From positions 62,001 to 126,000 of the forward strand of contig JAKLJW010000001.1 in NCBI GenBank assembly GCA_023150935.1: a stretch of 64,000 nucleotides of DNA. Reading direction: 5' to 3'. The position numbers were made by a program, and so were the translations under genes. Origin of the DNA: Candidatus Binatia bacterium (GTDB taxonomy: Bacteria > Desulfobacterota > Binatia > HRBIN30). Under the pieces are notes generated by a model that searched no databases, was not told the DNA's origin, and saw only the letters and a list, made by a program, of their open reading frames with translations. This document shows positions 5,510-48,587 of this stretch, piece after piece (positions within the stretch are counted from its first letter, which is position 1; each line of letters starts with the position of its first letter).

Positions 5510-6904
5510 TTACGTCGCGGCGTGCCGCACGAGCCGGACGGCGAAGAATCCGTCGAGTCCGTGCCGGTGCGGGAAGGTGCGCAGGATGCCGTCGCCACTG
5601 ACGAGTTCCGCTGCCCCGGCCGGCAGGACCCGGCGGGCGTCGTCGATGGCGAACTCGGATCGTTCGCGGAGGAAGGCCGTTACGTTGTCCTCGTTCTCCT
5701 CCGCCGACAGGGTGCAGGTGGCGTACACGAGAGTGCCGCCGGGGCGGACACAGTCGGCCAGACGTTCCAGGAGCCGGCGTTGCAGAACGGCGAGTGCCGC
5801 AACGTCGTCCGGCGTTCGCCGCCACCGCACCTCCGGATGCGCGCGCAACGTGCCGAGTCCCGTGCACGGCGCGTCGACGAGCACGCAATCGAACCGGGGG
5901 GGGGCGCCCGACGCGTCAGCGTGGGCTTCGACCCACGCGACGGCGTCGGTCGGAACCGTGTGGATCGCGGCGAGACCGAGGCGACGCGCCTGGGCGGCGA
6001 GACGCTCAAGTCCGGTTGCGTTGGGGTCCAGGGCGAGCAGTTCACCGCGGTCGTCGAGCAGCTCCGCGAGATGCGTTGTCTTACCGCCCGGGGCCGCGCA
6101 GGCGTCGAGGACCCGCTGCCCCGGCTCGACGCCGGCGAGCAGGCCAACGAGCTGCGAGGCCTCGCCCTGGACCGAACACAGACCCGCGGCGATGCCGGGA
6201 ATGCGCGACGGCGAACCCACATTGTCGAGGCGAATACCCAGCGGCGAGAACGCCGTCGGTGCGGCCGCGTAGCCCGCGCCGGTCAGCTCGGCGAGCAACG
6301 CTGCCCGGTCGCCGCGGCGTACGTTGACGCGCAGGACCGTCGGGGCGGGTTCGTTGTCGGCGGCAAGCAGTGCGCCGGTCTCCGCCTCGCCGTACGCGGC
6401 CAGCCAGCGCTCGACGAGCCACGTCGGATGCGAAAAGCGGACGGCAAGATGCGCGGCGGGGGCGCTCGCGGGCGGCAGGGCAACCTTGGCCCAGCCCTTC
6501 ACGGCGCGCCGGAGCACGGCGTTGACGAAGCCGGCGGCGATCCCCCCACGGTGCCGCTTGACGAGCTCGACCGCCGTGTCGACCGCGGCAAAGTCCGGCA
6601 CGCGCGCCAGCTTGCACACCTGAAAGAGGGCGAGGCGGAGCACGGCACGCACCGGCGGATCGAGTTCTGTCAGGGGCCGCCGCGAGAAGGCCGACAGCAC
6701 ATGATCGAGATACCCCTGCCAGGCGAGGGTCCCGTATACGAGACGGGTGACGAGCGCCTGATCGCGCTGCTCCAAACCCGAACCGTCCAACCGCGTTCCG
6801 AGGAGCGCATCGGCGAAACCGCCGTCGTCGACGAGTTGCAGGATTTCCCACGCCAGGGCGCGGGCATCGGGAGGCCGCGGTGCCGCCGCCCTCGACTTAG
6901 CCAA
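5510..6904 (-). CDS. rsmB: 16S rRNA (cytosine-967 C5) methyltransferase RsmB
   Basis: SAM-dependent enzyme that methylates C967 of 16S rRNA. The 464-residue protein has an N-terminal NusB-like RNA-binding domain (about 10-150) and a Rossmann methyltransferase domain. It carries DACAAPGGKTTHLAE for SAM binding, DAPCTGLG, and YATCTLSAEENE with the expected catalytic cysteine. TTG 6904 is the start; it overlaps the fmt stop codon by eight bases, pointing to translational coupling. It is the last gene of def-fmt-rsmB, the widely conserved arrangement. Confidence 0.94.
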   Translation of the reverse strand: MAKSRAAAPRPPDARALAWEILQLVDDGGFADALLGTRLDGSGLEQRDQALVTRLVYGTLAWQGYLDHVLSAFSRRPLTELDPPVRAVLRLALFQVCKLARVPDFAAVDTAVELVKRHRGGIAAGFVNAVLRRAVKGWAKVALPPASAPAAHLAVRFSHPTWLVERWLAAYGEAETGALLAADNEPAPTVLRVNVRRGDRAALLAELTGAGYAAAPTAFSPLGIRLDNVGSPSRIPGIAAGLCSVQGEASQLVGLLAGVEPGQRVLDACAAPGGKTTHLAELLDDRGELLALDPNATGLERLAAQARRLGLAAIHTVPTDAVAWVEAHADASGAPPRFDCVLVDAPCTGLGTLRAHPEVRWRRTPDDVAALAVLQRRLLERLADCVRPGGTLVYATCTLSAEENEDNVTAFLRERSEFAIDDARRVLPAGAAELVSGDGILRTFPHRHGLDGFFAVRLVRHAAT

Positions 6905-7823
6905 GGATAGTCCCCGTCTTCACGGTGCCACCGCGGCTGAACTCGCACGCCGGCAGGCGCTTGCGGCCTTCGAGTTGGACCTCATCGAGGACCAGGGTGC
7001 CGAGGCCGGTCGCGACCCGCAGACCGTCGTCCAGTCCGGCGACGCGTCCCGGGGGCCCGCCAATCGCCTCGGGTAGCGCGTGCGCGCGATGTATCTTGAG
7101 CAAACGACCTGCCGCCAGCGTGTGGGCGGACGGCCACGGATTGAAAGCTCGTACGACGCGAGCAAGCTGTTCCGCCGGCTGCACCCAGTCGAGGCGGCCG
7201 TCTGCCTTCCGGAGAAGCGGCGCGAGAGTCACGGCGGCCTCGTCCTGCGGGCGCGGATCGAGAGTGCCGAGTCGGAGCCGCTCGACGGCGTCGACCAGAG
7301 CCAGCGCTCCGAGTTCGGCGAGCCGCGTCTGGAGTTCCCCGTAGGTTTCATCCGCGCCGATGGAGGTGCTGCGCTGCAAGAGAATGTCGCCGGCATCCAG
7401 CCGCTCTTCGATTCTCATGATGGTGATCCCGGTGACGGTCTCGCCGCGCAGGATCGCCCACTGGATCGGCGCGGCGCCGCGATAGCGAGGCAGCAACGAG
7501 GCGTGGACGTTGATGCAGCCGTGCGCCGGCAGTTCGAGAACGGCCTGTGGCAGGATCTTCCCGTAGGCGACGACGACGATCAGATCGGGCTGCAACTCGC
7601 GTAACGCCGGCAGGAAATCCCCGGAACGCACTCGCTCGGGCTGAAACACCGGCAGGCCGGCGGCGAGGGCTTCCGCCTTGACGGGGGGTAGCGCAAGATG
7701 CTGGCCGCGTCCCGCCGGCTTATCGGGTTGACAGACCACGCCAACAACGGGCTCCGTGCCGGCGAGCAGCGCACGCAGCGAGGGTACGGCGAACTCCGGT
7801 GTGCCGAAAAACACGATGCGCAT
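6897..7823 (-). CDS. fmt: Methionyl-tRNA formyltransferase
   Basis: Transfers a formyl group from 10-formyl-THF to initiator Met-tRNA. The 308-residue protein starts MRIVFFGTPEFAVPSL, contains the formyltransferase motif HASLLPRYRG and the nearby PIQWAI and GITIMRIEERLDAGDIL stretches, and has the C-terminal OB-like domain. ATG 7823 is chosen over the upstream open frame because similarity starts there; the ribosome site is weak. It lies 41 bases after def and overlaps rsmB. Confidence 0.96.
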   Translation of the reverse strand: MRIVFFGTPEFAVPSLRALLAGTEPVVGVVCQPDKPAGRGQHLALPPVKAEALAAGLPVFQPERVRSGDFLPALRELQPDLIVVVAYGKILPQAVLELPAHGCINVHASLLPRYRGAAPIQWAILRGETVTGITIMRIEERLDAGDILLQRSTSIGADETYGELQTRLAELGALALVDAVERLRLGTLDPRPQDEAAVTLAPLLRKADGRLDWVQPAEQLARVVRAFNPWPSAHTLAAGRLLKIHRAHALPEAIGGPPGRVAGLDDGLRVATGLGTLVLDEVQLEGRKRLPACEFSRGGTVKTGTILG

Positions 7824-38862: not shown

Positions 38863-39483
38863 ATGGGAGCCGTGCGTCAACCAGAAGCCCCCGACCCCGC
38901 CGCCGACAGTGGTCCGGAGCCCGGTGAACTGGTGCTCGTCGATGTGCTGCCGCCGCCCGTCGCCGACGCCGCGAGTGCGGAAGCAACGCCCACCGAGCCC
39001 GCTTCTGAAGCCGTGCAGGGGCTCGTCAATCAATACCTCGCCGAGCTGCGCACCGACCTTCAGACCCCGATTACCTTGCCGCCACCGCCTCCCGCGGTGC
39101 GGCGGGTGTACGGTGGCTTGGCCATCTCCGCAGCGCTCATGGTGGCGGCAGCGGCTGCGGTGGCGGTCGTGATCTGGAATACCGGCCTGCCGGTCTCGTC
39201 GCTCGAGGGAGTGTCTGCCGCCCCGGGCGGCGCGGCGTGCGTCGCGCGGCAAGAGGAGGTCATGGCGGCGCTGGCGGCTTACGCCGTCGATCACGGTGCG
39301 CCGCCGCCCACACTCGACAGCCTGCGACCGCAGTATCTGCTCGACCCGCCGGCCGATCCGACCACCGGCACGCCGTTTCGCTATCTGCACGACGGCGCCA
39401 GTGCGCTGTTGACCTGCCCGGATCATCCACTTGCACCGCACGTCGAGGCGCATGACATCGGCACCGGCGCCCCGCAAGGATAA
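38863..39483 (+). CDS. Bitopic membrane protein with pilin-like periplasmic tail (1)
   Basis: A 206-residue protein not assigned to a named family. It has a cytosolic acidic/proline-rich N-terminus (about 1-80) and one transmembrane helix (about 84-104). The periplasmic domain starts CVARQEEVMAALAAYAVDHG and continues TLDSLRPQYLLDPPADPTTGTPFRYLHDG. The Y-x-x-D-G...P.tL..L....l..P..D..tG..Y pattern recalls the C-terminal half of type II secretion pseudopilins. A similar protein lies at 42700-43158, on the other side of the pilin genes. The ribosome site is weak. Confidence 0.65.
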   Translation: MGAVRQPEAPDPAADSGPEPGELVLVDVLPPPVADAASAEATPTEPASEAVQGLVNQYLAELRTDLQTPITLPPPPPAVRRVYGGLAISAALMVAAAAAVAVVIWNTGLPVSSLEGVSAAPGGAACVARQEEVMAALAAYAVDHGAPPPTLDSLRPQYLLDPPADPTTGTPFRYLHDGASALLTCPDHPLAPHVEAHDIGTGAPQG

Positions 39484-39685
39484 TGGCATGGCGCCGCCAT
39501 GAGCCGGCCATCCGTGCAGCGACAAAATCTTTTGCAGCCGCGCCGAATTCGTCGCCGGGCCGCCGTCAGGAGGGTCGGGAGCTATGTCTGAGGGCGGCGG
39601 GAACCACGGTACGTGCTTTGCTGCTTGGCCAGTCAGCGGAGTGGAAGCCGGCGGAGCGGTCGCCGCGCAGGGCGACGGCGGAACC

Positions 39686-40072
39686 ATGGTGACAGGGACA
39701 CGCACGCAGCGTGGCATGACGGTGGTCGAGGTTATGGTAGGCCTCGGCCTCATGGCGCTGGCCGTGATGGGACTGAACTCTCTGGCAGTCTCGGCGATAC
39801 GCAACAACCTGAGTGCGCGCCTCGTCGACAATGCCACGCTGCTGGCACAGCAGAAGATCGAACAGATCAAGCGCAACGGTTATGCCGCGGCGGTGCCGGG
39901 TACGACGGTCGAGAGCAACCTGGATGCGGCCGGGAACCCGGGTGGCGGTTATCGCCGCACCACCACAATCGCGGCCGGGGCGCTCGGGACCACGCGCAAC
40001 GTGACGGTGACGATCGGGTACACCGACAACGGTATGCGCCAGGTGAGCTTCATGACGGAGTTGGCGCAATGA
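39686..40072 (+). CDS. Type IV prepilin-like protein (PilV/GspI class)
   Basis: A 128-residue minor pilin. It has a short basic leader with the prepilin peptidase site RG|MTVVEVMVGLGLMALAVMG, the Glu at position 5 of the mature helix, and a small C-terminal domain (GGGYRRTTTIAAG, GYTDNGMRQVSFMTEL). ATG 39686 is chosen because it gives a nine-residue leader; an open frame continues upstream without signals. Its stop overlaps the PilW-like start. Minor pilins prime pilus or pseudopilus assembly. The gap 39484-39685 shows no gene. Confidence 0.85.
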   Translation: MVTGTRTQRGMTVVEVMVGLGLMALAVMGLNSLAVSAIRNNLSARLVDNATLLAQQKIEQIKRNGYAAAVPGTTVESNLDAAGNPGGGYRRTTTIAAGALGTTRNVTVTIGYTDNGMRQVSFMTELAQ

Positions 40073-40827
40073 GCCCGCCGGGTGCGTGTCCGGCGCGATG
40101 GCAGGCCCGGGCGGGCCTGTCGATGGTCGAGTTGCTGGTTGCAACGGCGCTGCTCAGCCTGGTGATGGCCGCCGCCTACAGCAACCTGATCGCGCAGATC
40201 CGCACGCATGCGACGCAGCAGTTGGTGACGGAGTCGATGAACGACGTGCGCACGGCGATGCGCATCATGTCCGAGCAGATCGGCATGGCGGGTTTCGGCG
40301 TACCTCTCGCCACGACCCCGTCCGCGGCGGCGCGTCTGGTGACCGCCGCGCCGGCGAAGTTGGCGTTCTGGACCAAAGTCCCCGTTACCCACACCTACCT
40401 CAGCGCCGCCGCAGCCGCCGGGACCAGCACGATCGGCGTGGTGTCCGCCGCCGGGCTCAAGGCCGGCATGTCGGTGTACATCAGCGACTCGACGCGCTGG
40501 TACTTCGGCTCGATCCGTACCGTCAGCGGCAACACCGTCCTGCTTTCCTCGACGCTCGCGTACTCCTTCGCGGCCGGCTCTCCGGTGACGCCGGTCGAAC
40601 AGGTCACGTTCGAGCTGGTCGGCAGGGACCTTATGCGCAACGGCAAGCGCTTCATCACCAACGTAACCGGCCTGTCGTTCACGTACGACTCGACGACGCT
40701 GTCCGCGATCCGACAGATAAACATCTCCCTGTCCGTCGAGACACGGGCGAACGACCTGGCGACGCGCAAGCGGTTGCCGTTTACGCTGACGACACGCGTA
40801 GCGCCGCCGAATCTGGGGTTCTCATGA
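40069..40827 (+). CDS. PilW-like minor prepilin
   Basis: A 252-residue prepilin. The leader is followed by LSMVELLVATALLSLVMAAAY, where the residue before the helix is Ser rather than the usual Gly, then the PilW-like segment MNDVRTAMRIMSEQIGMAGFG. The C-terminal beta-rich domain ends with a FELVGRDLMRNGKRF, TGLSFTYD and TRKRLPFTLTTRV stretch, as in PilW/GspJ-type proteins. ATG 40069 overlaps the previous stop (ATGA) and its own stop overlaps the next gene. The non-Gly cleavage site may make processing poor or place it one residue away. Confidence 0.8.
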   Translation: MSPPGACPARWQARAGLSMVELLVATALLSLVMAAAYSNLIAQIRTHATQQLVTESMNDVRTAMRIMSEQIGMAGFGVPLATTPSAAARLVTAAPAKLAFWTKVPVTHTYLSAAAAAGTSTIGVVSAAGLKAGMSVYISDSTRWYFGSIRTVSGNTVLLSSTLAYSFAAGSPVTPVEQVTFELVGRDLMRNGKRFITNVTGLSFTYDSTTLSAIRQINISLSVETRANDLATRKRLPFTLTTRVAPPNLGFS

Positions 40828-42083
40828 GCGACGAACGACGGCATCCGGCAAACACGCGCGGGTCGGCGCTGGTGTTCGCGCTCGGTTTCATGTCGGTGGT
40901 GCTTATCATTGCGCTCGGGATTCACACGCTGGTGACCACGCAACTCCGGGCGGCGGGAACATTGCGGCAGCGCGCTACCGCGGAGTACCTCGCCGAGGGC
41001 GGTGTGCAGCGTGCGACGGCGTGGTTCAAGACCCAGGGTTACAGCCTGCCGAGCGCGACGCAGCTCACGGCAACCGTGCCGGTCAACCTTACCAGCAACA
41101 GCAAGCCGGTGACCCTGCCCGGCAATCACCCGAACAACTACACCGACACCGGTGGCCTCGCGAAGAGCGGTGTGGTTACGGCATACAACGGTTCGCTCAC
41201 CGGTCAGTCCGTGGGGGGCGGCCGCTACAGCGTCAACGCCGCGTTGATCGCGACCAATCCCGAGACGTGGGAACTCCTCGCCACGGGCACCGTTGGCAAG
41301 GTGTCCCGTCAGGTCGGCGGTCTGCTGGTGCGTCAATCGCAGCCGCTCTTCCAGGACGGCTTGTTTGCGCGCGACTCCGTCCAGATAAGCGGCAACGCGT
41401 ACACCGACAGCTACGACTCGAAGAAAGGGGCGTACGGCCCCAGCAATCGTACGAACGACGGAAACATGCGCAGCAACGGCAGCATGGCCCTGAGCGGCAA
41501 CGCCACCATCGGCGGAAACGCCATCCCCGGGCCGAGCCAGAAAGTGAGCCTGTCCGGCAATGCCAAGGTCACCGGCTCGACCACGCCGGCTGCGTCTCCG
41601 GCGGCGTACGCGCCGGTCACCGTTCCGGGAGGTATTACCAACCTCGGCGCCCTGTCGCTCAGCGGCAACAAGAAGCGCACCCTGACCGCCGGCACCTATC
41701 TCGTCAGTTCCATCTCGATTACCGGCAACGCCCAGTTGATCATCAATGCCGCGGCTGGGCCGGTTAATCTATATGTGACCGGGAGCATCTCGGTTGCCGG
41801 CAACGGCATCGCCAACGGCAGCCAGTTGCCTTCGAACCTGATGATCTACCAGAGCGGGTCGAAGGGCATCGGTTTTTCGGGCAACGCCGATTTCTACGGC
41901 ACGGTCTATGCCCCGGAGTCGCCACTCATGGTCAGCGGCAACGGCAACATGTTCGGGGCCTTCGTGGCCTCGACTCTTCAAAATAGCGGCAACGGCGGAA
42001 TCCACTTCGACCAGGCGCTGAAGTCGATCCCGGGCGGTCCCGGGGTCGTCAAGCTGACTTCGATGTGGACACTGCCGTCGTAG
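40824..42083 (+). CDS. PilX-like pilus assembly protein with SGNA-repeat domain
   Basis: A 419-residue protein. The N-terminus (GSALVFALGFMSVVLIIALGIHTLVTTQLRAAG, residues 13-45) is the PilX-type membrane helix with an AEYLAEGGVQRATAWF segment after it. The C-terminal 240 residues carry many S-G-N-A/G-N motifs (ISGNAYTDS, LSGNATIGGNA, LSGNAKVTG, ITGNAQLI, FSGNADFYG, VSGNGNMFG), which predict a bactofilin-like beta-helix, as in DUF7305-type proteins. It may be a minor pilin with an adhesive or structural tip. It is coupled to pilW by ATGA. Confidence 0.78.
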   Translation: MSDERRHPANTRGSALVFALGFMSVVLIIALGIHTLVTTQLRAAGTLRQRATAEYLAEGGVQRATAWFKTQGYSLPSATQLTATVPVNLTSNSKPVTLPGNHPNNYTDTGGLAKSGVVTAYNGSLTGQSVGGGRYSVNAALIATNPETWELLATGTVGKVSRQVGGLLVRQSQPLFQDGLFARDSVQISGNAYTDSYDSKKGAYGPSNRTNDGNMRSNGSMALSGNATIGGNAIPGPSQKVSLSGNAKVTGSTTPAASPAAYAPVTVPGGITNLGALSLSGNKKRTLTAGTYLVSSISITGNAQLIINAAAGPVNLYVTGSISVAGNGIANGSQLPSNLMIYQSGSKGIGFSGNADFYGTVYAPESPLMVSGNGNMFGAFVASTLQNSGNGGIHFDQALKSIPGGPGVVKLTSMWTLPS

Positions 42084-42099
42084 AGGCAGGAGGGTACTT

Positions 42100-42522
42100 A
42101 TGCGCTTGCACCGGTATAGCGGACACGAGTCCCAGAAGATGAAACGGGTCGGCGGCTTCTCGTTGGTGGAGTTGCTCACCGCGCTGGCCGTTCTGTCGAT
42201 TCTGGCTGCCCTGGCCGTGCCGGCGTACCGCAACGTGAGACGGCGGGCGTTCGATTCGGTCGCGCTGTCCGACGCGGTCAATGTCGGCAAGGCGATCGAC
42301 GGTATGGACTCGACCGCGACCTTCTCGCGTACGGTGCGCGGGCCGGGCCGCGTAACCAACGTGCCCGGTGCCTACGTGTCGCGCGGCACCACGCTGGTAA
42401 TCCAACGCACCCGCAGTCGTGCCGGTATCTACTCGACCTACGTGCGTGGGACGCACGCGAAGGGCGTCGCGACATTTTACTACAGGGACGGGCGCACGAC
42501 GGCGACTAACGCGCGCTTGTAG
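42100..42522 (+). CDS. Type IV prepilin-like protein (major-pilin or GspG/H class)
   Basis: A 140-residue prepilin with a basic leader and a canonical site GG|FSLVELLTALAVLSILAALA, Glu5 present, then YRNVRRRAFDSVALSDA. GGAGGG lies six bases before ATG 42100. The C-terminal domain is short (YVSRGTTLVIQRTRSRAG, GVATFYYRDGRTTATNARL) and lacks the usual pilin cysteines. It could be a pilin or a pseudopilin; no pilus ATPase, secretin or platform gene is in the window. Confidence 0.8.
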   Translation: MRLHRYSGHESQKMKRVGGFSLVELLTALAVLSILAALAVPAYRNVRRRAFDSVALSDAVNVGKAIDGMDSTATFSRTVRGPGRVTNVPGAYVSRGTTLVIQRTRSRAGIYSTYVRGTHAKGVATFYYRDGRTTATNARL

Positions 42523-42699
42523 GCAGCTTATGGCCAATCGCTTTCGCGTCGGACCGGAGATGAAGCGCGGGGGATCCGCTACCGGGAACGTCACCCCGTT
42601 CGAAATGCGGTTCCGCATTTCCGGTTTCGTTCCACCGGTTTGCCGCTTGCCGGTCGCATCATCGCCCAATCCGGCTCTGCCGGGCGAGAGAGGGAAGGC

Positions 42700-43158
42700 A
42701 TGGACGAAGGACACGTAGCTCAGGACGTGCGAGCGCTCGCGCGGCAGTTCGCCGACGAAGTGCGCTTGCAGGGGCCGCCGCGGGTCGATGAAGTGCCCCG
42801 CACCCGTCGCACCGAGACGGTGGTGCTGGCGATCCTGCTGCCGATTGCGCTGCTCGTCGGCGGGGTGGAGGTGGCGGTGCTGATGCGTGCGAGTACCGGC
42901 GGGGCGTTGCCGTCTCCCGACCCGGAGGTCTTGCGGATCGAATCCGAACCCTGCATGCGCCGCATGGCGTCTATCGGCCGCGCGGTCGAGGCGTACATCG
43001 AGGAGCACGGGACAGCCCCGCGCACCCTGGGCGACCTTCCCGCCGGTGCCTTGTCCGAGCCGGCCGTCGAGCCGCGCTCGGGACGGCCGTACGAGTATAA
43101 ACCCGACGGTAACGGGTATACGTTGGATTGCCCGAACGTCGGGGGGCACGGGGTTTGA
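42700..43158 (+). CDS. Bitopic membrane protein with pilin-like periplasmic tail (2)
   Basis: A 152-residue protein with the same plan as the one at 38863: a charged cytosolic N-terminus (1-42), one helix (about 43-66), then CMRRMASIGRAVEAYIEEHG, PRTLGDLP and PRSGRPYEYKPDGNGYTLDCP. The two tails share C...A..AY...HG..P.TL..L and a final sugar-like P-Y-x-Y-x-x-D-G element. ATG 42700 has GGGAAGG upstream. Function unknown; encoded with the pilin genes, so a role in assembly is inferred. A perfect GAAATGCGG-TT-CCGCATTTC hairpin lies at 42602-42621. Confidence 0.65.
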   Translation: MDEGHVAQDVRALARQFADEVRLQGPPRVDEVPRTRRTETVVLAILLPIALLVGGVEVAVLMRASTGGALPSPDPEVLRIESEPCMRRMASIGRAVEAYIEEHGTAPRTLGDLPAGALSEPAVEPRSGRPYEYKPDGNGYTLDCPNVGGHGV

Positions 43159-43191: not shown

Positions 43192-44052
43192 ATGGGCTAC
43201 GAGATTCGGGCGATGTCGTTCGGCGAGATCCTCGACGCCGGATTTCAGTTACTACGCGACCACTTCGTCTTGCTGGTCGGCACGGCCTCGGTGCTTTACG
43301 TCCCGACGGCGATCTTGAATGGCTACCTCGGCCGGGAACTTCGGGACCCGGCTCAGGGCGCCCTTGCCGCGGCGGTTGGTGCCGGTGCGGGTTTGCTCTT
43401 GCTGGCGCTGGTGGCGGCGCCGATCGTGCAGGTGGCCGTCACCTACGCCATCGGCGAGGTCTACGTCGGCCGCCAACGCACGATCGGGTCGGCCTTGCGT
43501 TTCGGTCTGTCGATTCTGCTGCCGCTGGCCGGGACGGCGGCCCTGGTGTATCTCGCGATCCTATGCGTTCCGACGGTGGCCGGTGGAGTTCTCGCCGGCG
43601 TGACCCTGTGGTTGGGCCCCGCGCTGGGCATGGAGGCGTTGACCTTCCTGGGTGTCGGGGTTGCCGGGTTGGTGGCGGGGGCCGTGCTGGTGTACATCTC
43701 TTTGAGCTTTCTGATCGTCTGGCAGGTTATGGTGTTGGAGCGCGTCTTCGGAGTTGCCGCCATGCGCCGCAGTCGCGCGTTGATGCGCGGCCACCTGATG
43801 CGTGGCTTTGGCGTCATGCTGGTGAGCGCTCTCGTCATTCTGCTGCTGGTCGGTGGCGTCGGGTTCGTTCTCGCCTTTATCCCGTGGCTCGGATCGGTTG
43901 GTGCGGGTGTGGCGCAGGCCGCCGGCGCGGCTTACGGCGCGGCGGTCGGGGTGGCGCTGTATTTCGATCTGCGCTGCCGGAAGGAAGCGTTCGAGATCGA
44001 ACACCTGGCGCAGAAGGTGCTGGCTGGTGCGCCGACTGTGCAGTCGCAATAG
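43192..44052 (+). CDS. Polytopic membrane protein (DUF7847/GDPD-membrane-domain-like)
   Basis: A 286-residue membrane protein with an amphipathic N-terminal segment (MSFGEILDAGFQLLRDHF) and about six transmembrane helices. It contains VVWQVMVLERVFGVAAMRRSRAL-like features (read as WQVMVLERVFG and AMRRSRALMRG here), known from the membrane domain of glycerophosphodiesterase-like proteins. No catalytic domain is attached. It heads the run of genes leading to MoxR and DUF58, as is common in other genomes. Function unknown. Confidence 0.75.
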   Translation: MGYEIRAMSFGEILDAGFQLLRDHFVLLVGTASVLYVPTAILNGYLGRELRDPAQGALAAAVGAGAGLLLLALVAAPIVQVAVTYAIGEVYVGRQRTIGSALRFGLSILLPLAGTAALVYLAILCVPTVAGGVLAGVTLWLGPALGMEALTFLGVGVAGLVAGAVLVYISLSFLIVWQVMVLERVFGVAAMRRSRALMRGHLMRGFGVMLVSALVILLLVGGVGFVLAFIPWLGSVGAGVAQAAGAAYGAAVGVALYFDLRCRKEAFEIEHLAQKVLAGAPTVQSQ

Positions 44053-44211
44053 AGTGCGGGGCGGATGTGCAACCTGAGAGCACGGGGCAGGTTGCCGGTC
44101 GCTCGGATGGGGAATCCGCACTGACGCCGCTTCCGGCCGGGACCCGGCATGGGGTCAGCCGCCTGCGCCACGTTGGGTCGGTTCCCGCAACGGGCTGCTG
44201 ATGCGGCCGTC

Positions 44212-44838
44212 ATGACGATCCCACCGCTGCCGCCCGACGATCGTATCCGTGCCCTGGCAGCGGACGTTCTGGGCCGCGAGGAGTACGCGCGCTGGCGCGC
44301 GGCGCCGGTGCGCGGTTTCTTCGATCTGCTGATCGCGATCGAGCGCTGGCTCGATATTGTCCGTGCCTGGCTGGCCGTCGTGGCCGACACGCAGCCCGTT
44401 CTGTACTCGGCGTTGCTCGTGGCGCTCCTGCTTGTGGGGGTCGGTCTGCTCGTGCACATCGCGTACGCCGTACACCGCGCCCTGGGGGCGGCATCCCGCG
44501 GTGTGCGGCCGATGGCGGAGGAGACGGCGCCTCCGGCATGGCTGAACGAAGCCGAGGGCCTGGCGCGTGCGGGGCGCTCGCTGGAGGCGGCCCATCGGGT
44601 ACATCTTGCCGTCCTGACGTTGTTGCTCGAAGAGCGTGGCCTCCGCCTCGACCGTGCCGAGCCGAACCGGGTACTGCGCCGGCGTTTGACCGCGGCGCGC
44701 CTGGGCGACGCGGAGCGGCGTGAGCTGCTCCGGTTACTCGACCGGTTGGAGACCCGTTGGTTCCGTGACCGCGCCGACGATCCGGGCCTCTACGAGGCCT
44801 GGCGCACGTTATACGCGCGGGTCGCGGCGCTTACTTAG
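44212..44838 (+). CDS. DUF4129 membrane protein
   Basis: A 208-residue protein with an N-terminal cytosolic part, one clear helix (about 59-82) and a C-terminal helical DUF4129 domain (AEGLARAGRSLEAAHRVHLA, LDRLETRWFRDRADDPGLYE). DUF4129 proteins accompany MoxR, DUF58 and DUF4350 genes and are thought to act in envelope-linked complexes. ATG 44212 is chosen as the start of the family-like region; an upstream in-frame ATG exists at 44149. It is five bases before the DUF4350 gene. Confidence 0.75.
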   Translation: MTIPPLPPDDRIRALAADVLGREEYARWRAAPVRGFFDLLIAIERWLDIVRAWLAVVADTQPVLYSALLVALLLVGVGLLVHIAYAVHRALGAASRGVRPMAEETAPPAWLNEAEGLARAGRSLEAAHRVHLAVLTLLLEERGLRLDRAEPNRVLRRRLTAARLGDAERRELLRLLDRLETRWFRDRADDPGLYEAWRTLYARVAALT

Positions 44839-44843
44839 TTCTC

Positions 44844-46052
44844 ATGACGACTGCGGCGCGCATATCTGTAGTCGTACTTCTGGTCGGGCTCGTGTTGTTT
44901 GGACTGCTGGGCGAACCGGCCGGCGTTCAGGTGTCGCACACGTCCTTCGGTACGGTGCCGCGGGGGTACCGGGGCGCGTACGAAGTACTGGCGGGGCTAG
45001 CTCTGCCCGTGCGGCGCGAGGTCGTCCCGCCGTCCCGTCTGGAGCCTCAGGCCACCGTCTGGTGGATCGAGCCGCAGGGCCTGTGTGGAGATGACGTGGC
45101 CGAGCGGACGTTGCCCGGAGAGCCGGGCCCGATTGGCACCGCGGGGTGGCCGGGCCGTGCGTGGATAGAGGCCGGCGGCACCGCGGTGGTGATGCTGCCG
45201 CCCGGCGGCGCCGCGTGTACCGCGGTAGCAGGCCTCGCCCTGCCGGCTCGGATCGACCCGGACTTGCCGGCCGAGGAGGGTGATGCCGCGAGGGACCGCA
45301 AGCCGAGCCCGGCCGATCGGTTTTACGCGGAGACCGCGGGGGTCGAGCAGGAGATAGACGGTCCGGCGCGGGTGCGGATGATACGTAGCGCGGGCCTGAC
45401 GACCTTTGCCGAGGCCGGCGACTGGCAGGTGCGGGCGCGGGTCGGTGCGTTGCCGTTTCTGCTCGAACGGGCGCTGGGCCGCGGCCGTGTGGTTGTCGTT
45501 GCCGATGCGGGGCCGCTGCGCAACGCGTGGTTGAGCACCGCGGATGGGGCACCGTGGATGATCGATCTCGTGCGCGCTTTCGGCGTGCCCCGCTTCGACG
45601 AATACTCGCATGGGGTGAGGACCGACTCGGGTGCCGTGGGGTTCATTGCCGGTTCGGCGGCGGTGTGGCTGTTTGCGGGTCTGGCGGTACTCGGTTCGCT
45701 GGTGGCGTGGCGGGGGGCGATGCTGCCGCCCCGGAGTGCTGCGACGGGTGAGGCTGCGGCCCCCGTACTCGATCCATTCGTCGATGCGCTCGCGGATCTG
45801 TACGCGCGCAGCGGCGACTACCGGCGCGTGGCGGATCGCTACCGAGATCTGGCGGTGATGCGGCTATGCCGGCGACTGGGGCTGCCGCCGGGGACATCGC
45901 CGCAGGCCGTGGTCGAGCGTCTGGGTGCCGGCGGCGACGTTGCTGGGGCAGAGGCGCTGCTGGCGACGGATAGCCGGCATGTCGGTTCCGAACGCGAGCT
46001 GCTAACGCTGGTGCGCGGTTTCGAAGCGCTGTCGAAGGAGGTGGGTGGATGA
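44844..46052 (+). CDS. DUF4350 membrane protein
   Basis: A 402-residue protein with an N-terminal helix (about 8-25), an extracytoplasmic DUF4350 domain (about 30-265) in which GRGRVVVVADAGPLRNAWL is characteristic, a second helix (about 270-292), and a cytosolic helical tail (ADLYARSGDYRRVADRYRDL). Its stop overlaps moxR (ATGA). Function unknown; probably part of the MoxR/DUF58 complex. Confidence 0.75.
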   Translation: MTTAARISVVVLLVGLVLFGLLGEPAGVQVSHTSFGTVPRGYRGAYEVLAGLALPVRREVVPPSRLEPQATVWWIEPQGLCGDDVAERTLPGEPGPIGTAGWPGRAWIEAGGTAVVMLPPGGAACTAVAGLALPARIDPDLPAEEGDAARDRKPSPADRFYAETAGVEQEIDGPARVRMIRSAGLTTFAEAGDWQVRARVGALPFLLERALGRGRVVVVADAGPLRNAWLSTADGAPWMIDLVRAFGVPRFDEYSHGVRTDSGAVGFIAGSAAVWLFAGLAVLGSLVAWRGAMLPPRSAATGEAAAPVLDPFVDALADLYARSGDYRRVADRYRDLAVMRLCRRLGLPPGTSPQAVVERLGAGGDVAGAEALLATDSRHVGSERELLTLVRGFEALSKEVGG

Positions 46053-47008
46053 ACGACGGGCAAGCCGGGGTTGGGTTGGTGACCAGCGCATTCGAGGCCC
46101 TGCGGGAGAATGTCGGGGAGATAGTCGTCGGTCAGGAAGCGGCGGTGCGCCTCGCTTTCGTTACCCTCCTGTGCAGTGGGCACAGCCTGATCGAGGGTGT
46201 TCCGGGGGTGGCGAAGACCTTACTGGTGCAGACCCTGGCCGCGGCGGTAGCGGTGCGGTGCGGGCGAGTGCAGTTCACGCCCGACCTGATGCCGAGCGAT
46301 ATCGTCGGGACGAGCATCCTCGACGTGCAGACCGGGGCGGCGCGTTTTCGGCAGGGACCTCTGTTTACGGATTTGCTGCTGGCCGACGAAATCAACCGGG
46401 CCTCGGCGAAGACGCAGGCGGCCCTGCTCGAAGCGATGCAGGAGCGGGCCGCGACGGTGGACGGTACGCGCTACCCGCTCGGGGCATACTTCACGGTATT
46501 TGCGACCCAGAATCCGGTGGAGCACGAAGGCACGTACCCGCTGCCGGAGGCGGAGCTGGATCGGTTTCTGTTCAAGATCGTCATCGATTATCCGTCGGCG
46601 GCGGAGGAGGCGGATATACTGCGACGCCACCACGGCGAGGCGCACCCGGCGGGATCGGTGCGCCCGGTGCTCGATGCGGAGGGCCTGGCCGCCGCGCGTT
46701 CGGCCGCCGGCGGCGTGATCGTGCGCGACGAGATCGTTGCGTACGTCGCGGCCCTCGTGCGAGCGACGCGCACCGACGTCAACTTCGCGCTCGGCGCCTC
46801 GCCGCGGGCCGGAGTGATGTTGCTGCGGGCGGCGAAGGCGGCCGCCGCCCTCGCGGGGCGCGATTACGTATTGCCCGAAGACGTGCAGGAGATGTGGTTG
46901 CCGGCGGCGCGTCATCGCGTGCAGCTCGATCCGTCGGCCGAAGTCGAGGGCCTGACGGCCGAAGTCGCCTTGCGACGAACCCTGGCGAGTGTGGCCGTGC
47001 CGCGATGA
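46049..47008 (+). CDS. MoxR-family AAA+ ATPase
   Basis: A 319-residue chaperone-type ATPase. Walker A GVPGVAKT near residue 52, Walker B LLADEINRASAKTQAALLEA, sensor 1 FATQNPVEHEGTYPLPEAEL and the C-terminal lid with GASPRAGVMLLRAAKA are all intact. MoxR proteins remodel partner proteins, commonly those with VWA or DUF58 domains. It is coupled by ATGA overlaps to DUF4350 before and DUF58 after. Confidence 0.94.
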   Translation: MNDGQAGVGLVTSAFEALRENVGEIVVGQEAAVRLAFVTLLCSGHSLIEGVPGVAKTLLVQTLAAAVAVRCGRVQFTPDLMPSDIVGTSILDVQTGAARFRQGPLFTDLLLADEINRASAKTQAALLEAMQERAATVDGTRYPLGAYFTVFATQNPVEHEGTYPLPEAELDRFLFKIVIDYPSAAEEADILRRHHGEAHPAGSVRPVLDAEGLAAARSAAGGVIVRDEIVAYVAALVRATRTDVNFALGASPRAGVMLLRAAKAAAALAGRDYVLPEDVQEMWLPAARHRVQLDPSAEVEGLTAEVALRRTLASVAVPR

Positions 47009-48324
47009 GCCTGTTTCCCACCCGGCGCTTGCTCGCTGCCGCCGGTCTGTGGACGGCCGCGGCTCTGGTTGTCGTCGTCTTGCCGATCCTGTGGCCGGCG
47101 TTGGCCGCCGCCGGCTTGCTGCTCGGAGGCCTGGTGGCGTGGGATGTCCGATCGATATCGCGGCAGCCTCCGGTGCGCTTGCGCCGGCGGCTGCCGGCGC
47201 GGGCCTTCGCCGGCCGCCACGCCGCAATCGGCGTTTCGGTCGAGTACGACGGCGACCCGGCGTGGGTCGAGGTCTTCGAGGATGCGCCGGCAGTGCTGGT
47301 CGAGAGCCAACCGGAGTTCGCGGCCGTCAGGGCGGGTGCCGGCAATCCCGGGGCTTTGTCTTACCCGGTGCGGCCGAAGCAACGGGGCGATTTCGCGTTT
47401 GGTCCGCTTATCGGCCTGCTCGTGTCGCCACTTGGAATGTGTTGCCGGCGGGTGGTCGGCGGGGTGGGCGATACGCTTGCCGTGTACCCGGACATGACGC
47501 GCTTCTTACGGCCGGAGGCGCTGGACCCGCGGCGGGTGCTTGCGGTGGCGGGGGCGCGGCCGCGGCGGCAGCGTGGCGAGGGCATGGAGTTCGAGTCGTT
47601 GCGGGAATACGTTCCCGGGGACGACCCGCGTCGGGTCGACTGGGCGGCCAGCGCGCGGCGGGGGCGGCTGATCGCGCGCCAGTACCGGCACGAGCGCAAC
47701 CACACCGTCTTGCTGGCGCTCGACGCGAGCCGGCTGATGGGCGCACGGGTGGGAGGGCAGACCAAGTTGGATCATGCCGTCGATGCCGCTCTGGCGCTGG
47801 CGTACGCGGCGCTGGTGTCCGGGGATCGGGTCGGACTCGTGGTCTTCGATCGTCAGGTACGCGGTACTGTGGCGCCGCGCGCGCACCGGCGGGCGCTCGG
47901 TCCGTTGGTCGAGGTTCTGCGCAATGTAGCGCCGCAACTGGTGGAGGCGGACTACCGTGCGCTCGTCCGCGATCTCGGGGCGCGTCAGCGACAGCGGGCC
48001 CTGGTTGTCGTGCTCACCGACTTTGTGGAGGCCGACGCGGCGCTGCTGACGGCGCCGCTGACGGTACTGGCAGGGCGGCATCGGGTGCTGCTCGTTGCGC
48101 TGCGCGACCCCGCGTACACGACGGTCGATGCGGCGCTGCCGGCCGAGTTCCGGGTTGCCGACGTCTATCGGCGTCTGGTGCTGGAGGACCTGCTGGCGGA
48201 GCGCGCGCGGGCACTCCACGCGCTTGCGAGAAGCGGCGTGCAGACGCTCGATCTGCCGCCGCCGCAAGTGACCGCCGCGGTCCTCAACCGCTATCTCGTG
48301 CTGCGCGGCGAGGGGACGATCTGA
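47005..48324 (+). CDS. DUF58 (VWA-like) membrane-anchored protein
   Basis: A 439-residue protein with two N-terminal helices (about 8-48), a beta domain, and the DUF58 region with EFESLREYVPGDDPRRVDWA. A VWA-like fold follows: VLLALDASRLM is a partial MIDAS, since it has DxS, and DRVGLVVFDRQV comes after it. DUF58 proteins are the standard partners of MoxR. ATG 47005 overlaps the moxR stop; it ends a five-gene set starting at 43192. Confidence 0.9.
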   Translation: MSLFPTRRLLAAAGLWTAAALVVVVLPILWPALAAAGLLLGGLVAWDVRSISRQPPVRLRRRLPARAFAGRHAAIGVSVEYDGDPAWVEVFEDAPAVLVESQPEFAAVRAGAGNPGALSYPVRPKQRGDFAFGPLIGLLVSPLGMCCRRVVGGVGDTLAVYPDMTRFLRPEALDPRRVLAVAGARPRRQRGEGMEFESLREYVPGDDPRRVDWAASARRGRLIARQYRHERNHTVLLALDASRLMGARVGGQTKLDHAVDAALALAYAALVSGDRVGLVVFDRQVRGTVAPRAHRRALGPLVEVLRNVAPQLVEADYRALVRDLGARQRQRALVVVLTDFVEADAALLTAPLTVLAGRHRVLLVALRDPAYTTVDAALPAEFRVADVYRRLVLEDLLAERARALHALARSGVQTLDLPPPQVTAAVLNRYLVLRGEGTI

Positions 48325-48334
48325 GTCACGATTG

Positions 48335-48587
48335 GCGCGCCTGCGCGCAAGGCGCGGCAGGCAGTGACGTAATCGGGTTGTCCGGGTGGAACGTGCGCTC
48401 CGCGCGCGTTCGCCACCGATGACCGGGCGGTCGTCTCAAGACGATGAAGACGCGGTCCCCGCCGCGGGGTCGGGGTCGGAATCGCGATCGGGATCGAGGG
48501 AATCGGATCGATCCTGCTGCCGATAGCGATGGCTGCCCGCCATTGCGCTTGCCCACCCCCGGTCCTACGCACCCCGATTTTCGAAGG
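48335..48587 (+). repeat. Dispersed repeat, long element copy B
   Basis: Same orientation and order of blocks as 14575-14802: GCGGTCGTCTCAAGACGATG at 48427, a GGGATCGAGGGAATCGGAT stretch ending near 48508, GATGGCTGCCCG at 48528 and GATTTTCGAAG at 48576. It fills the gap between the convergent DUF58 and acyltransferase genes. No gene lies here. Confidence 0.7.

Follow-up and report, generated by a model that had tools for sequence, protein, structure and literature searches.

In the 64,000-nucleotide stretch of Candidatus Binatia DNA analysed here (the window), a run of pilin genes is bracketed by two genes for similar bitopic proteins, A and B, which are members of a family covered by no Pfam or NCBIfam entry. 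We find this family to be real, conserved and unnamed, with a cytosolic tail, a single membrane helix and a leaderless, pilin-like periplasmic half. All the genes of the run lie on the + strand. Protein A (203 aa) occupies 38872-39483, its GTG start at 38872, preceded by GGGAG, being more likely than the alternative ATG at 38863. There follow a PilV-like prepilin (39686-40072; N_methyl 22.6 bits at G000:C1:101701-101775, above the cut-off), a PilW-like prepilin (40069-40827; N_methyl 29 bits, also above it), a PilX-like protein (40824-42083; DUF7305 67 bits, E 2.2e-18, with PilX_N at 17.6 bits and E 0.0037, under its cut-off of 25.5) and a further pilin (42139-42522; N_methyl above cut-off) that is paired with B. 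Protein B (152 aa) closes the set at 42700-43158, its start being the ATG at 42700 and not the TTG at 42640 of the longest frame. Just 3' of B, at 43192-48422, lie genes for a membrane protein, a DUF4350 protein, a MoxR-type AAA ATPase and a last frame that we take to be DUF58-like, a common type of cassette that shows no evident tie to pilins.

A and B align with 35% identity across 62 residues (E 5e-11), and the stretch they share is the periplasmic half, in which two cysteines stand 59 residues apart and a helix and a turn lead to a strand pair closing with Cys-Pro. Each protein has one hydrophobic helix, at residues 83-101 in A (39118-39174, mean hydropathy 2.67) and, from hydropathy and the table of members, at residues 42-60 in B (42823-42879), and K and R are more numerous on the N-terminal side of the helix than on its C-terminal side, from which the tail is predicted to lie inside; one membrane helix with the K/R excess on its inner side recurs in 18/18 members. 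Within the helix of B lies Glu57; an acidic residue at this place was rejected as a universal trait of the family, being found in just 7 of the 18. The putative cytosolic tails carry a conserved helix, EAVQGLVNQYLAELR in A (39007-39051), from a block kept in seven tails of the order, and QDVRALARQFADEVR in B (42721-42765), assigned from the model and the conservation of the same block. On the outer side are the periplasmic domains, 39208-39480 with C123 and C182 in A, and 42922-43155 with C85 and C144 in B.

Profile searches leave the family without a name. Protein A has no Pfam match at E up to 1, the sole match of B in that range is a sub-threshold FixS, all NCBIfam matches of the two are far under cut-off, and N_methyl is absent from both. 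The Pfam sequence profiles of PilN and PilO gave no match at E up to 10. An anti-sigma or CU044_5270 identity (E 0.006 and 0.0036) was rejected, as it lies far under the 100-bit cut-off. A literature search, with most subscription journals outside its coverage, turned up no account of bitopic pilin-domain proteins without a leader as a family, nor of a receiver-bearing PilB together with such a pilin-domain protein.

The fold of the outer half was approached through an AlphaFold2 model of B from a two-row alignment, whose second half is confident (block pLDDT means run from 67 to 90 over residues 81-150) and whose membrane part is poor. Foldseek against the PDB returned no significant E-value, the best, 0.29, being a Thermus pilin. 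In a VIA structural alignment of residues 75-152 (76 candidate chains, 21 rows), PulG came first, with Z 8.3, rmsd 2.4 and 77 aligned residues, and pilins and pseudopilins, PulG/GspG among them, make up all of the top 14 of the 21 rows. The model of A is poorer, and PulG again came first with a Z of only 4.3. On this modelled evidence we read the periplasmic half of B as a GspG-type (GspG/PulG pilin) domain, and that of A likewise by its homology to B. By hhalign, homology between the family and the pilins of the same operons was not found (probability 2.4). The first-pass annotation had described here two similar bitopic proteins bracketing a minor-pilin cluster, each with a cytosolic tail, one helix and a pseudopilin-like C-terminal half lacking a prepilin leader, and had recognised no described family; its description stands throughout, the structural match of A being the weak one. 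PilN is also bitopic and binds a partner in the cytosol through a short segment on that side, and its periplasmic domain is ferredoxin-like; A and B resemble it in the first respect and differ from it in their modelled GspG-type domain and in having no PilN Pfam match.

The fold of the periplasmic half is thus held in common with the major pseudopilin GspG/PulG and with PilA4-type pilins, and the family differs from these in having neither prepilin leader nor Glu5, in a linker that interrupts the long N-terminal helix, and in a tail of 41-162 residues (range over the 18 members). A pilin domain without a cleavage site should not be matured by prepilin peptidase for extraction into the fibre. 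None of the 18 members has the peptidase motif, with its Gly(-1) and Glu5, at the membrane helix, A and B included; the pilin-like outer half is therefore probably not cut free, and both proteins should stay in the membrane and not enter the fibre. One could still see in A and B odd minor pilins that are processed and built into the fibre, the long tail being removed by an unusual cleavage, as their fold and their location among minor pilins would allow. The motif does have two loose matches in the family, at residue 96 of L022 and residue 17 of L025; both lie away from the membrane helix. With no motif at the helix in any of the 18 members and with tails of such length, this reading is very improbable.

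Within the order, profile searches placed the family in 5 of 15 genomes, with A and B in the window's genome (G000), two proteins in G001 and one each in G008, G010 and G012. In the class, 7 of 148 genomes matched at E up to 0.001, the search adding only weak matches, and two of the seven, G004 and G028, have no family member; the weak matches of G004 and, within the order, of G008:C18 were rejected as leader-bearing pilins, and that of G028 as a multi-helix protein with a pilin-like end. A tree groups the seven proteins of the order as a clade next to those of G160 and G260 (support 97/96), and the order of A and B within the clade is not settled by it. In four of four cases (the window, G001, G008 and G010) a B-type gene lies directly 3' of one kind of pilin gene, the close relatives of the pilin at 42139-42522, with gaps of 177 bases in the window, 14 in G001, 12 in G008 and 17 in G010. 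A profile of these four pilins found no fifth copy in the 148 genomes, the next match scoring 79 bits against at least 205 for the four themselves, whose scores are high by construction, the profile having been built from them. The A-type gene of G001, as in the window, is 5' of PilV, PilW and PilX-like genes, and is divergent from the gene of a PilB ATPase that bears a double zinc ribbon and a receiver domain; between the two lies a single small pilin homologue without a leader. This homologue (L023 9101-9433, just 5' of the A-type gene) resembles the B-paired pilin minus the GFxLxE leader and the C-terminal part, and might be read as a pilin in decay or put to another use. The family gene of G012 is directly 3' of a PilB ATPase gene (L025 10210-12627) whose product ends in an HATPase_c_2 domain. 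No PilB gene adjoins A or B in the window's genome, where the PilB-receiver gene is on contig C4.

Searches at phylum level, of 395 genomes each, gave 11 further family genomes at E under 1e-12, and one more, G527, was found among 46 genomes. The distant and own-order proteins align by hhalign with probability 98 and E 2.5e-13 and, judged by these profiles, are one family. Among the distant loci, G160 and G260 have the gene order PilB, family gene, prepilin; G194, G335, G157 and G229 have the same order with a terminal receiver domain on PilB, preceded in G194 and G157 by kinase-like and HPt genes; and G383 and G527 have a hybrid kinase, the family gene, a prepilin, an HPt gene and a PilB with receiver domains. 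In G286 a PilB-receiver-like gene, of which the contig edge leaves only the end, is followed by the family gene and a prepilin; in G398 a run of N stands between PilB and the family gene, and a prepilin comes after; G294 has the family gene and then a prepilin, and G299 the reverse. An apparent fusion to PilB in G398 (L105) was set aside, as its frame crosses the N stretch at 6822-6907 and is not evidence of fusion; this genome is for our purposes in the count of loci and outside the table of 18 proteins. Domains were checked with Pfam in the G194 and G383 cassettes and in the ATPase and prepilin of G398, the remaining neighbours being assigned by BLAST and motif matches.

Counted over 19 loci, that is, the 18 with complete family proteins and G398, a prepilin gene adjoins the family gene in 18, the exception being G012. 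A PilB gene lies at most two genes away in 12 (G001 A, G012, G160, G260, G194, G286, G335, G398, G157, G229, G383 and G527), and no PilB is nearby in the other seven (G000 A and B, G008, G010, G001 B, G294 and G299). One family (f27) supplies six of the 19 loci and one genus supplies two, which leaves about five independent lineages. For rough comparison, N_methyl has 15 matches at E up to 1 in the 5.3 Mb genome of the window, and few genes picked at random would therefore lie beside one. In three distant lineages the PilB, family and prepilin genes are neighbours, mostly inside a phosphorelay cassette with a hybrid kinase, an HPt protein and an ATPase with fused receiver domains, and the family protein of these lineages usually has a zinc ribbon in its tail.

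None of the 17 genomes with a best E of 1e-12 to 1e-4 was counted among the 19 loci. We inspected the protein or neighbourhood in 11 of them (G028, G155, G176, G182, G261, G278, G336, G379, G391, G439 and G476) and, to the extent that they were readable, rejected these as true prepilins or as pilin-domain-like proteins of another kind; the six left out are G208, G367, G387, G424, G509 and G516. Other architectures were seen on the way. Near the G278 prepilin (L062 / L117 3867-4688), a membrane helix and leaderless pilin-like domain are joined to what looks by eye like a PilP-like part, and L061, L063, L065 and L017 hold proteins, TPR-like by eye, that end in a leaderless pilin-like stretch. 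A TPR-like protein of G007 with a leaderless pilin-like C-terminus is encoded about 24 kb from the PilB-receiver gene. Multi-helix proteins, presumably DUF5671-like, have a leaderless pilin-like domain either fused to them or after them in L037, L064 and L113, where no adjacent pilus gene was seen. Small pilins with the leader GFSFVSVL or GLSFVSIL, without Glu5 and with a ComGC-like cysteine pattern, are found at L034 1453-1842 and L028 4931-5275.

The tails are of several kinds. CxxC pairs resembling a zinc ribbon are present in 10 of the 18 proteins, those of G383 and G527 included, and are absent from the tails of G294 and of the order's seven. In G383 and G527, which belong to one genus, the tail also bears an Hpt-like domain (PF01627, 31.5 bits against a cut-off of 24.6 in G383) whose phospho-accepting histidine is replaced by T or S; the histidine is kept in the five separate HPt genes aligned to these tails (G000, G008, G002, G194 and G383). 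The Hpt-like tail without its histidine is the best hint of a tail that grips a receiver domain, and suggests a docking domain for a receiver such as that of PilB; receiver domains are carried by PilB of the same cassettes. In the order the tails are short conserved helices, a 15-column block across the seven scoring 13.4 against a shuffle mean of 3.96 (sd 1.30, max 10.4), a score attained by 0 of 200 shuffles. A double zinc ribbon is there found on the PilB-receiver ATPases themselves (G000, G001, G008, G010 and G007), and that the ribbon moved from adaptor to motor is only a guess. PilB-type ATPases with MshEN, T2SSE, double zinc ribbon and C-terminal receiver were seen at L038 6192-8741, L039 5911-8367, L040 5586-8009, L042 5447-7992, L043 5862-8255 and L023 6456-9110, the domains having been Pfam-checked in all except L042. 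An HPt gene is 3' of the PilB-receiver gene in G000, G008 and G002, and with a receiver-bearing PilB-type ATPase and an HPt protein a phosphorelay may gate the motor in cis.

With its tail in the cytosol and its pilin domain on the outer side, a protein encoded beside motor and pilin genes would suit the part of an adaptor at the pilus base. We put at about even the chance that A, B and their relatives are pilin mimics held in the inner membrane, the tail docking on the assembly ATPase (of PilB type, often with receiver domains) and the outer domain engaging cognate pilins at the base of the pilus. In this model the cognate pilin or the minor pilins would be engaged by the membrane helix and pilin domain and offered for polymerisation, B serving the pilin encoded just 5' of it and A the PilVWX set encoded just 3'. 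To the computed homology, topology, fold of B, missing leader and conserved linkage, this model adds docking, pilin contact and direction of action, which we infer. Counted against it are the want of PilB nearby in seven of the 19 loci, those of A and B of the window among them, the Hpt-like tail of one genus only, the near full-length PilB-receiver ATPase matches of G002, G004 and G007, genomes of the order with no family member, and the Foldseek and hhalign values given above. Such an adaptor mechanism is plausible and testable; the earlier suggestion of a possible role at the base of the pilus has withstood the tests and is kept within it, and linkage to pilins elsewhere is borne out by the neighbouring prepilin genes. 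More tentatively, and with rather poor odds, the cassettes may describe a phosphorelay-gated motor, in which the hybrid kinase and HPt protein would phosphorylate the PilB receivers, the tail (zinc ribbon, Hpt-like or helix) would grip the motor, and the pilin domain would be a non-extractable first subunit starting the fibre.

The nearest functional analogue of A and B is TfpY. In PMC11841053, TfpX, TfpY, TfpZ and FimB share with the family a gene 3' of the pilin gene, a membrane protein with a periplasmic domain, and a proposed priming of assembly without fibre entry; TfpY there promotes assembly without being found in the fibre, a precedent for that part of the adaptor model. The same text gives TfpY three membrane helices and a mixed beta-sheet domain, and by that description it is set apart from A and B, with their one helix and GspG-type domain. 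Measured by the features of TfpY and FimB, B-type genes are directly 3' of a pilin gene in the window, G008, G010 and G001, and 18/18 members have one hydrophobic segment, not three N-terminal membrane helices; relatives of A and B are also linked to PilB, unlike those proteins as described. A pilin-specific chaperone or accessory of TfpY type, which would hold or present its own pilin and the minor pilins within the membrane with no role for the ATPase, is accordingly a rival, and one that we consider doubtful. It would account for the four of four B-type genes that follow their pilin and for a membrane protein of G010, with a sub-threshold GT87 match, whose gene overlaps the B gene, and TfpY itself, according to that source, gives two-hybrid signals with PilA, PilE and FimU. 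A cytosolic partner is indicated instead by the PilB genes near 12 of the 19 loci, by the conservation of the tail and by tails of zinc-ribbon and Hpt-like kind. The same cassettes could be turned round into an outside-in sensor, whose pilin domain would sense how much pilin is on hand, or in what state the pilus base is, and whose tail would report to the phosphorelay of hybrid kinase, HPt protein and receiver-PilB, these being in one gene run with the family gene in G194, G157, G383 and G527, with an Hpt-like tail in the last two. This we hold to be unlikely, since the family protein has no kinase or catalytic domain, the Hpt-like copy lacks its histidine, and no signalling gene adjoins the window's locus. 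Control of an extension ATPase through a receiver domain has a parallel in the Pil-Chp system, where, according to PMC12632253, PilG acts on PilB; in the relatives studied here the receiver is likewise on the side of the extension ATPase, and differs from PilG as there described in being fused to PilB, while the pilin-domain protein may carry an Hpt-like domain.

The link of these relatives to PilB-type ATPases and phosphorelay genes goes beyond the first-pass annotation and is new. Debate continues on how pilins across the membrane are acted on by the cytosolic ATPase of type IV pili. If the adaptor model is true, a bitopic protein with an outer pilin domain and a motor-linked tail would provide a direct handle on the coupling of ATPase and pilin, and the receiver-PilB cassettes of its relatives suggest that pilus extension may be gated in cis by a phosphorelay.
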